A stretch of 61,094 nucleotides of DNA from Rhodospirillaceae bacterium (GTDB taxonomy: Bacteria > Pseudomonadota > Alphaproteobacteria > Rhodospirillales > Rhodospirillaceae). Made by a program: the position numbers and the translations under genes. Under the pieces are notes generated by a model. The model was not told the origin of the DNA, ran no database searches, and saw only the letters and a program-made list of their open reading frames with translations. This document shows positions 29,187 to 51,345 of the stretch, piece by piece (position 1 is the first letter of the stretch; every line of letters starts with the position of its first letter). The stretch covers positions 1 through 61,094 of the forward strand of contig JAIBCD010000014.1 of NCBI GenBank assembly GCA_019694335.1, read 5' to 3'.

Positions 29187-29273
29187 TGGTGCGGGTAGAG
29201 GGAATCGAACCCCCATGTCCGTAAGGACGGTAGATTTTGAGTCTACTGCGTCTACCAGTTCCGCCATACCCGC
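29187..29273 (-). tRNA. tRNA-Leu (anticodon CAA)
   Basis: On the minus strand the gene starts GCGGGTATGGCGGAA and ends with an encoded CCA at 29187-29189. The acceptor arm GCGGGTA pairs with TACCCGC. The anticodon loop CTCAAAA between GTAGA and TCTAC gives anticodon CAA, which reads UUG. There is a long variable arm (CGTCCTTACGGACAT) and a T-loop GTTCGATTC, as in class II leucine tRNAs. Confidence 0.95.
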
Positions 29274-49363: not shown

Positions 49364-50077
49364 ATGGAAGACTTTGTCCGCCTCCCCGACGGCGCCACGC
49401 TCTGGATCTATACCGAAGGACACGGCCCGCCGCTGGTGCTCCTGAACGGCGGACCTGGGCTTGCCGACTATCTTCAGCCCGTCAGCACGTTGCTCGCGGA
49501 CGCGTGCACCGTTCATCGCTACGAGCCGCGCGCCTGCGGCCGTTCGAGCCCTGCGGGACCGCATACTCTCGCGCAAGCCATCGCCGATCTGGAATCGCTG
49601 CGCCGTCACTGGGGCCATGAACGCTGGATCGTCACCGGCCACTCCTGGGGCGCCGACCTCGCGCTGGCCTACGCGCTCCATCATCCCGGCGCCACGCGCG
49701 CGGTGATCGGTCTCGCCGGAGGCCGCGTGGTCAACGACCGCGCGTGGCACGCCGCCTATGCCGAGCGGCGCCATACCGAGGAGATGCCGACGGCGGCGGC
49801 GCCGAACCTCGATGTGAACCGCGCCCTGACCGACGACTGGCGCGCGTTCTGCTGTACGCCCGACTTGCTCCACCGCCTGTCGGTGCTGGAAACGCCCTGC
49901 CTGTTCGTGTTCGGCGAACACGACATCCGCCCGTCCTGGCCGACGGAACAGATCTGCGCGTTGCTGCCCGAAGCCGCCTATATGCCGCTGGCCGGCGCCG
50001 ACCACTATCTGTGGCGCGGCAACCCGCAGGGCCTCGCGAAAGCCACAAAAACATTCCTTAAAGCCCTCGCGCGATAG
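49364..50077 (+). CDS. Alpha/beta hydrolase (proline iminopeptidase-like)
   Basis: The 237-residue protein has the oxyanion motif NGGPG (HGGPG in classical enzymes), the nucleophile elbow GHSWGADLA with Ser, the acid in FGEHD, and the histidine in GADHYLWRG. It therefore keeps a full catalytic triad. It is shorter than proline iminopeptidases (about 310), with a reduced cap domain, so substrate range is uncertain. It follows accA by 22 bp. Confidence 0.88.
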   Translation: MEDFVRLPDGATLWIYTEGHGPPLVLLNGGPGLADYLQPVSTLLADACTVHRYEPRACGRSSPAGPHTLAQAIADLESLRRHWGHERWIVTGHSWGADLALAYALHHPGATRAVIGLAGGRVVNDRAWHAAYAERRHTEEMPTAAAPNLDVNRALTDDWRAFCCTPDLLHRLSVLETPCLFVFGEHDIRPSWPTEQICALLPEAAYMPLAGADHYLWRGNPQGLAKATKTFLKALAR

Positions 50078-50091
50078 CCGAATTAAGCGGC

Positions 50092-50120
50092 TTTACAGCT
50101 TCCGCACGTTTGCTTATTTT
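50092..50120 (+). promoter_or_regulatory. Strong sigma-70-type promoter for the asd leader
   Basis: TTTACA (50092-50097) and TATTTT (50115-50120) are separated by exactly 17 bp. A start about seven bases after the -10 would lie at 50126-50128, only a few bases before the leader-peptide ATG at 50131. The leader mRNA would then be nearly leaderless. Confidence 0.65.
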
Positions 50121-50130
50121 CCCGCCCGCT

Positions 50131-50208
50131 ATGACGCACCTGACCAAAAAAACCACGACCAATACCAAAACGACCACTATCGGTGGGCGTTCGAGGTCGT
50201 GCGCGTAA
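50131..50208 (+). CDS. Threonine/lysine-rich leader peptide of asd
   Basis: The 25-codon frame starts MTHLTKKTTTNTKTTTI and ends GGRSRSCA. Nine residues are threonine, three lysine and one isoleucine, most of them in a run of codons 5-17. A perfect intrinsic terminator follows 29 bases later and asd 39 bases after that. Aspartate semialdehyde is the branch point to lysine, threonine, isoleucine and methionine, so this has all parts of a transcription attenuator reading charged tRNA-Thr and tRNA-Lys. It has no clear ribosome-binding site. Confidence 0.8.
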   Translation: MTHLTKKTTTNTKTTTIGGRSRSCA

Positions 50209-50237
50209 GTCAGACGCGATAAGCAGACAAACCCTCG

Positions 50238-50268
50238 AAAGGCCCCTCGGATCGGATGGGGCCTTTTT
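50238..50268 (+). terminator. Attenuator terminator before asd
   Basis: AAAGGCCCC (50238-50246) pairs with GGGGCCTTT (50258-50266) and is followed by more T residues. TTCGAGG (50190-50196), near the leader-peptide end, can pair with CCTCGAA (50233-50239), and CGAGG there can pair with CCTCG (50245-50249) in the terminator arm. Either is a candidate antiterminator when ribosomes stall on threonine codons. Confidence 0.85.
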
Positions 50269-50307
50269 CATTTCAGGCGCCATCTCTCCCAACCCGGAGT
50301 AAGCGCT

Positions 50308-51345
50308 ATGAATCACCAGCCTCGCCCCCTCGCTCCCCGCTCCTTGGCAATCGTCGGCGCCACCGGCGCCGTCGGCGTGGAGTTCCTCCACTGCCTCGCG
50401 CAACGCAATTTCCCCGTGGGCAAGCTCAAGCTGCTCGCGTCCTACCGCTCGGCCGGCAAGACGCTGCCGTTCCGGGGCGAGGCGCTCACCGTCGAAGCGC
50501 TCACCGAAGACAGCTTCCAGGGCGTCGATATCGCGTTGTTCTCGGCCGGCGGCGAAACCTCGAAGAAGTACGGACCGATTGCCGTGAAGGCCGGCGCGGT
50601 GGTGGTGGATAATTCGTCGGCCTTCCGCATGGACGCGGGCGTGCCGCTGGTGGTGCCCGAGGTGAACCCGGAGACCATTTCCGGCCACGCCGGGCTCATC
50701 GCCAATCCCAATTGCTCGACCATCATCTCCATGACCCCGCTGTGGCCGATCCACCAGCAAAACCGCATCAAGCGTATCCAGCTCGCCACCTACCAGGCGT
50801 CCTCGGGCGCGGGCGCCGCGGCGATGGAAGAGCTCGTTGAATCCACGCGCGCCCACCTCGATGGCCGGGAGTATGCGCCCAAGGTGCTGCCGCATCCTTA
50901 CGCCTTCAACCTGTTCAGCCATAACAGCGACATCGATCCCGCTACCGGCTACAACGGCGAGGAGACCAAGGTCATGCGCGAAGCGCGCAAGATCTTCGGC
51001 GATCCGGATTTGCGCATCTCGGCCACCTGCGTGCGGGTACCGGTGCTGCGCGCCCACGCGGTGGCGATCTCGTTCGAATGCGAACGCCCGATCACCGAAC
51101 ACGAAGCCCGCGCGATCATCGCCAAAGCCCCGGGCGTGAAGCTGGTGGACGACCGCGCGCGCAACCTGTTCCCCATGCCGCGGGACGCCTCGGGCCAGGA
51201 CGACATCCTGGTCGGGCGCATCCGCCAGGATGTCTCGGACCCGTCGGGCCGCACCATCGCGTTGTTCGCCGCAGGCGATCAGTTGTTGAAGGGCGCCGCC
51301 CTCAACGCCGTGCAGATCGCGGAGCACCTCGTGAAAGCGTCGTGA
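50308..51345 (+). CDS. asd: Aspartate-semialdehyde dehydrogenase
   Basis: The 345-residue NADPH enzyme makes aspartate 4-semialdehyde for the lysine/diaminopimelate, threonine and methionine branches. The nucleotide motif is IVGATGAVG, the catalytic cysteine lies in IANPNCSTI, and substrate residues are in YQASSGAGAAAMEEL and ISATCVRVPVLRAHA. It overlaps lysE by four bases (GTGA). Upstream lie a leader peptide and terminator that predict attenuation by amino-acid supply. CGGAG lies about nine bases before ATG. Confidence 0.96.
   Translation: MNHQPRPLAPRSLAIVGATGAVGVEFLHCLAQRNFPVGKLKLLASYRSAGKTLPFRGEALTVEALTEDSFQGVDIALFSAGGETSKKYGPIAVKAGAVVVDNSSAFRMDAGVPLVVPEVNPETISGHAGLIANPNCSTIISMTPLWPIHQQNRIKRIQLATYQASSGAGAAAMEELVESTRAHLDGREYAPKVLPHPYAFNLFSHNSDIDPATGYNGEETKVMREARKIFGDPDLRISATCVRVPVLRAHAVAISFECERPITEHEARAIIAKAPGVKLVDDRARNLFPMPRDASGQDDILVGRIRQDVSDPSGRTIALFAAGDQLLKGAALNAVQIAEHLVKAS

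Follow-up and report, generated by a model that had tools for sequence, protein, structure and literature searches.

The window analysed here, a stretch of 61,094 nucleotides from a Rhodospirillaceae bacterium, carries a second genomic copy of the gene for aspartate-semialdehyde dehydrogenase (asd2, 50308..51345, plus strand; above cut-off for NF011456 and TIGR01296) with a very short Thr- and Lys-rich frame in front of it. The question raised by this locus is whether the frame and the hairpin that follows it constitute a transcription attenuator, and if so what shortage is read and which gene is controlled. The leader frame (MTHLTKKTTTNTKTTTIGGRSRSCA, 50131..50208, plus strand) starts with ATG, comprises 25 codons (nine for Thr, three for Lys, one for Ile) and has Thr/Lys-rich homologues in relatives. 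It is preceded by a sigma-70-type promoter on the plus strand, TTTACA-N17-TATTTT (50092..50120; -35 at 50092-50097, -10 at 50115-50120), which is the sole promoter-like match between 49500 and 52500 (shuffled sequence gives a mean of 0.4). Between the leader frame and the start of asd2 lies an intrinsic terminator (50239..50268, plus strand; recognized by sequence, by fold and by its retention in relatives), with arms AAGGCCCC (50239-50246) and GGGGCCTT (50258-50265) forming a perfect 8-bp stem (50239-50265) that is closed by an 11-nt loop and followed by a U tract, with T's to 50268. A promoter with 17-bp spacing, a 25-codon frame with nine Thr and three Lys codons and a perfect terminator followed by asd had all been listed in the preliminary description, and all are there in the sequence.

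The Thr share of the leader frame is the highest among 1283 start positions of 15-45-codon frames on both strands of the window, and nine Thr codons occur in no other frame of this size, save the leader's own TTG-extended version. In 60 first-order Markov windows, at least nine Thr codons within 32 codons occur in one of 33,498 ATG frames, and at least three Lys codons in addition in none of the 33,498; a Thr-rich frame arising by chance is rejected on this count. A pattern scan of the window by itself does not single out the terminator (3 found vs 2.5 expected); what does so are an 8-bp stem without mismatch, a fold with z -2.24 (50209-50272) and conservation. Covariance-model searches provide no Rfam match for the leader, either with the whole window at gathering score or with 49900-50400 at E<=5, and a known Rfam element, including Thr_leader (RF00506), is thereby rejected. 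(The only gathering-score Rfam match in the window is a tRNA gene at 29190-29273 on the minus strand.)

Comparison of asd upstream regions among relatives, proposed at the outset as a check that might refute the layout, did not do so: the Thr-rich leader and terminator have homologues at 10 of 12 asd2 loci of the family (L010 and L012 are without), and examples of leaders from the genus are MFTCAKKTTTTLKTTTIGGAAGACAR and MSQLKIKTITITKTTTIGGAARACA. Beyond the family, a leader frame is found at 32 of 80 named loci (a set in which L102 has no upstream sequence, L088 has only 153 nt, and L061 and L062 belong to G004 and G013); in L074, L085, L094 and L096 the frame contains no more than three Thr. 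Representatives are MLRFATKTTTTTKTTTFGGPARTCA in Reyranella, MFTTTKRTTKTTTASGARGGVRA in Bradyrhizobium and MSAKTIIKRITKTTAPAGRPLVAAR in Acetobacteraceae; weaker forms occur in Caulobacteraceae and in one Rhodobacteraceae bin. An even draw of 387 genomes of the class contains 31 with asd2 at >=59% identity, the next match being at 51%. Thirty of these loci were examined (the 59% asd2 of G166 was left out); by eye, a leader precedes 22 and is absent from 8, the 22 including L198, L200 and L205, which have only two or three Thr. The named-locus and class-sample sets overlap partly, the same Reyranella-type records being present in both. Gaps in the coding part of the leader alignment are, by eye, multiples of three. 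Upstream of canonical asd genes in the same or related genomes there is no Thr/Lys leader frame (0/19), and the highest Thr+Lys share in these 19 regions is 0.29, vs 0.48 for the window leader.

The set used for most comparisons below consists of 43 leaders: those of ten family loci and 30 named loci together with L142, L152 and L153 (the gene following L152 is off the contig). On a tree built quickly from 69 Asd proteins, a minimum of two changes accounts for the leader. With L153 set aside, the leader rows (42) lie on one side of a branch with a support of only 16, and a 44-row fork with SH-aLRT 93 holds these 42 together with L010 and L012; L153 lies outside the fork on a long branch, the positions of L010, L012 and L153 being unsure. 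On this distribution, the simplest reading would be a single gain in the main group plus one transfer or gene swap. Loss of the leader in L010 and L012 was considered and is rejected: the best tree needs no loss. The nearest asd2 rows outside the fork (Alphaproteobacteria and Acidobacteriota bins) have no leader. At L153 (G002:C103), a very similar Thr/Lys leader stands before a different and divergent asd, either the leader having moved or the gene having been swapped; at L152 (G012:C241), the contig ends at the leader.

That asd is the gene under control was also part of the preliminary description. The leader does precede an asd, but this asd is a second isozyme: the canonical gene of the window's genome lies elsewhere (G000:C121:19262-20260) and its product is 47% identical to that of asd2. 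Window-type asd at >=70% identity is present in 12 of 61 genomes sampled from the window's own level through genus and family to order (the window's own genome included). Another asd is present in all 16 leader-bearing genomes of the 80-locus set that were tested, and 30 of the 31 class-sample genomes with window-type asd have at least two asd matches among the matches listed; the remaining genome, G445, has a single match, and its asd2 is without a leader. The candidate attenuator thus stands before a second, paralogous isozyme. A plasmid collection yields 140 records of asd relatives, Sinorhizobium included, all at <60% identity, and thus no close asd2 among plasmids. A wider regulon in the window's own genome was also considered and rejected on the two genes compared, full-length thrS (L157) and hom (L181), both of which are without a Thr/Lys-rich frame on the 5' side.

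The position of the leader frame relative to its promoter is as regular as its composition. A TT[TG]AC element starts 35-40 nt 5' of the leader ATG in 38 of the 40 leaders having upstream sequence, and at matching spacing in none of 120 displaced control windows. In ten family leaders (judged by eye) the spacer is 17 or 18 nt and the ATG is located 7-10 nt past the -10 hexamer, 10 nt in the window, which places it at or beside the expected start of transcription. This spacing suggests that the leader ORF is probably leaderless, its transcript starting at or close to the ATG. A leaderless leader of this kind has been described for trpL of Sinorhizobium meliloti (PMC7298713, PMC10117765).

Alternative partners for the terminator arm, which the preliminary description had suspected, can be assigned to four regions of the plus strand. 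Region 1 (AACGACCACT, 50169..50178) comprises the last Thr codons and, in the full-leader fold, pairs with GGTGG.CGTT of region 2 (CGGTGGGCGTTCGAGG, 50181..50196); in an outer helix of the same fold, 50154-50160 (the first Thr cluster) is paired with 50195-50201. Region 3 (CCTCGAAAGGCCCCTCG, 50233..50249) overlaps the left arm of the terminator (the 3:4 hairpin) and can instead provide the 3' arm of an antiterminator with region 2, in which TTCGAGG (50190-50196) pairs with CCTCGAA (50233-50239), as indicated by folds and duplex tests. Folded in full, the window leader adopts 1:2 together with 3:4 (-47.7 kcal/mol, z -3.17). When folding is limited to the part that begins with the last Thr codons and ends with the left terminator arm, 2:3 forms and region 1 is left unpaired, in the window as in four relatives; as whole folds, these stretches surpass shuffles only slightly (z -1.1 to -2.5). 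The 5' arm of the antiterminator overlaps the end of the leader ORF, and its pairing excludes the terminator; this arrangement is not supported in the Bradyrhizobium-type set.

Parts of the 2:3 pairing that flank the core vary in matched ways, from TTCGAGG/CCTCGAA in the window to CTGGG/CCCAG in G015, TTGAGG/CCTCAA in G016 and CGAGGG/CTCTCG in G008. With partners swapped among 39 distinct leaders, duplexes are weaker (-21.0 kcal/mol) than the leaders' own (-22.7 kcal/mol; 0/20,000 permutations), as they are on swapping within the 13 leaders of the window's family (32/20,000), while swapping of flanks only has a weak effect (1,224/20,000 for all 39 leaders and 972/20,000 for the family's 13) and ten Bradyrhizobium-type leaders are at chance (10,549/20,000), all of these counts overstating the evidence because related sequences are not independent. 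Relative to composition shuffles, 2:3 is better at p<=0.05 in 32 of the 43 leaders; among the 10 Bradyrhizobium-type leaders, 9 do not reach significance. In the 26 leaders with an exact terminator arm, the loop-closing pair is G-C in 20, A-T in 3, G-T in 1 and an unpaired T-T in 2. The U tract is not clear in 6 of 41 hairpins, although the search itself required T's, and in more of the class sample; a hairpin with a U tract was not found in L106 and L110 when the leaders were scanned. L093, L094, L096, L097, L106 and several of L203-L210 keep the Thr/Lys leader while the U tract is not clear. Hairpins of this sort hint that the outcome in those lineages may not be intrinsic termination but some other output (Rho, translation or pausing).

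Taken together, conservation, maintenance of the frame, mutually exclusive pairings, codon content and paralogy make it very probable that a ribosome-mediated transcription attenuator, switched on by shortage of Thr or Lys, precedes asd2; an attenuator sensing end products of the Asd pathway, as originally proposed, is thus well supported at the level of sequence. In this mechanism, RNA polymerase would start at or just 5' of the leader ATG, so that the leader would probably be translated as a leaderless mRNA. With ample Thr-tRNA and Lys-tRNA, the ribosome would reach the stop codon and cover region 2, and the 3:4 terminator would end transcription ahead of asd2. A shortage of Thr-tRNA (or Lys-tRNA) would make the ribosome stall in the KKTTTNTKTTT run and block region 1, leaving region 2 free to pair with region 3; the terminator could then not form, and asd2 would be transcribed (together with the exporter gene in the window's lineage). 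If the leader is not translated at all, the 1:2 hairpin would form and the terminator would win. We infer the transcription start, the stalling, the read-through and the sensing of Lys in addition to Thr. An attenuator in this position would make the asd2 isozyme inducible, so that more flux could enter the Lys/Thr/Met/Ile branch when needed, with the canonical asd giving basal supply; control would fall on the second isozyme and not on the basal enzyme. The short frame might instead encode a peptide with a job of its own, the hairpin being merely the end of an unrelated small RNA, and the trp leader peptide of S. meliloti does act in trans (as described in PMC7298713). This is scarcely credible here, since the frame accompanies asd2 and not the canonical asd, stands in one case before a different type of asd, and shares sequence with the alternative pairing.

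Related leaders were sought with an RNA model (R1), one of whose 8 pairs is wrong (a misplaced bracket) and which was used only for finding leaders. Some match at E<=0.1 occurs in 66 of 73 family genomes, 12 matches exceeding 100 bits and most weak ones covering the terminator only. In 5 of 16 matched regions that were looked at (in G001, G002, G006, G035 and G066), a Thr-run leader precedes a second threonyl-tRNA synthetase gene (thrS2) that is truncated at the N terminus (its match to the 565-position profile runs from 166-170 to 541-564); a full-length synthetase is also present in each of these genomes. The window's genome has only a full-length threonyl-tRNA synthetase above cut-off, and this is without a Thr-run leader. 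Of the five thrS2 leaders, one has Lys adjoining Thr and two carry a single Lys away from the run; the other two lack Lys. B. subtilis thrZ is likewise a second, inducible threonyl-tRNA synthetase, under T-box control. The proposed thrS2 leader resembles it as a device for inducing a spare copy on threonine shortage, and differs from it in employing a leader peptide where thrZ has a T-box. If the asd2 and thrS2 leaders both function as proposed, they would define a small starvation set of second-copy enzymes (a spare Asd and a spare threonyl-tRNA synthetase).

What exactly the asd2 leader senses is a separate matter. If only the charging of Thr-tRNA counted, as is likely for the thrS2 leaders, the Lys codons would be bystanders. 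Thr does outnumber Lys (7.0 vs 2.3 per leader), four of the five thrS2 leaders have no Lys beside Thr, and the asd2 leader of G020 has one Lys alone. On the other hand, Lys adjoins Thr in 43/43 leaders of the asd set vs 1/5 of the thrS2 leaders (Fisher 2.6e-5, with relatives not independent and with the Lys count biased because the choice of leaders favoured Thr richness, with Lys counting half); both Lys codons are used in the asd set (AAA 75, AAG 26), and Lys in or beside the Thr run recurs in distant families. A switch that reads Thr alone is accordingly possible but somewhat unlikely. Also doubtful, and to a similar degree, is the broader proposition that the leader responds to the aspartate family as a whole, the ribosome stalling whenever Thr, Lys, Ile, Met or Asn is short. 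Ile, Met and Asn make up 29 of the 90 core residues other than Thr and Lys (51 distinct leaders) vs 10% in five genes of the window, and Lys, Thr, Met and Ile are all supplied via asd; yet these residues are patchy, absent from Reyranella cores, and represented among Bradyrhizobium-type cores by one residue in L078 only.

A further property of the leader core is that 476 of its 533 codons start with A. The t6A modification at tRNA position 37 is made from threonine, and a run of A-initial codons could sense this modification rather than charging alone. Methylation of t6A in tRNA-Thr is described as affecting thr attenuation in E. coli (PMC4132733). Codons of the t6A set are nonetheless not preferred: core Arg is CGN in 21/21, which argues against selection for t6A-reading tRNAs as such, and core Ser is AGC in 4 and TCN in 6. 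Sensing of t6A is therefore most improbable, and reading of both Thr-tRNA and Lys-tRNA charging stands as the preferred account. One leader would then read both end products at the common Thr-Lys branch point.

Downstream, asd2 is followed by a LysE/RhtB-superfamily exporter gene (PF01810; 51342..51953, plus strand, with a GTG start chosen), which overlaps the asd2 stop by 4 nt. The preliminary description had called this gene lysE and had it controlled jointly with asd. By score the protein is nearer to RhtB (TIGR00949, 60.6 bits) than to LysE (TIGR00948, 23 of the 213.65 bits of the cut-off), both scores being below cut-off; assignment to the PF01810 superfamily holds. The two genes are adjacent in the window, but the exporter lies outside the conserved unit, adjoining asd2 at only 3 of 12 family loci (G000, G004 and G013), and an asd-exporter core unit is therefore rejected. 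At 18 other asd2 loci, where downstream ORFs were compared by length only, there is no shared neighbour apart from that of a Reyranella-type trio (L064, L067 and L071), which have in common a helix-turn-helix-like ORF on the opposite strand 3' of asd2. In G011, a genome with a single asd, a LysE-like ORF (by eye) is found beside the canonical asd (L155, C1, ~269-270 kb). An exporter induced by starvation looks paradoxical; plausibly, it would serve as a vent for the non-limiting branch when shortage of the other opens the switch. The composite picture, in which a class-wide, leaderless leader acts as a Thr/Lys OR gate to induce a spare Asd, a related Thr leader serves a spare thrS in the family, and the exporter vents the non-limiting branch, is one for which belief and doubt are evenly balanced.

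Ribosome-mediated attenuation is classical, the thrL leader of E. coli, with Thr and Ile codons, controlling thrABC, and lysine is mostly known to be sensed by riboswitch or repressor. The asd2 leader shares with E. coli thrL a Thr-codon run, alternative hairpins and a terminator before genes of the aspartate family (PMC4132733, as described there), and differs from it in combining Thr with Lys, in standing before a second asd and in being probably leaderless. With rnTrpL/trpL of S. meliloti it has in common an alphaproteobacterial leaderless leader ORF at the 5' end of the transcript; that leader senses Trp and controls trpE(G) (PMC7298713, PMC10117765). The nearest precedent is SEP5 of S. 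meliloti, a small ORF that carries six codons for Thr and three for Lys towards its 3' end and is located in the 5'-UTR of an 'aspartate dehydrogenase' gene (so named in print), its translation seen by Ribo-seq and Western blot (PMC10117765). It was proposed as a possible leader peptide and called conserved only in Sinorhizobium, and in the accessible part of that account neither a terminator nor an antiterminator, both of which the asd2 leader has, is described (PMC10117765). The composition of SEP5 agrees with that of asd2 leaders, as compared by printed description only (PMC10117765). A possible Thr/Lys leader peptide before an asd-like gene has thus already been published (PMC10117765); what is new is the proposed sensing of Thr together with Lys on an asd isozyme. 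New as well are the leader's class-wide link to second asd genes, its alternative structures, its probably leaderless spacing, the way leader-bearing Asd proteins cluster on the tree, and the related leader at thrS2. Beyond the suggestion made for SEP5, searches of mainly open-licence literature yielded no paper on an attenuator of asd or for Lys, nor any ribosome-mediated attenuator that reads Lys. For SEP5, a small ORF with shown translation, the present leader would offer a class-conserved candidate regulator.

Some smaller observations concern the terminator shared by these leaders. The thrS2 leaders (L143-L146 and L148, in G006, G002, G001, G066 and G035) have the same kind of terminator; the thrS2 copy of G006 contains an internal stop. 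At L141 (G089:C50) and L147 (G088:C130), a weaker Thr-containing leader with the same terminator is followed by GNAT- or PNPOx-like ORFs and, downstream of these, by an aminotransferase-like one (all named by eye). At L149, L150, L151 and L156, the same terminator follows a short frame that ends ..P(L)EG(A/C) and has no Thr run, and that precedes a small lipoprotein-like ORF (by eye); these are perhaps another leader family.
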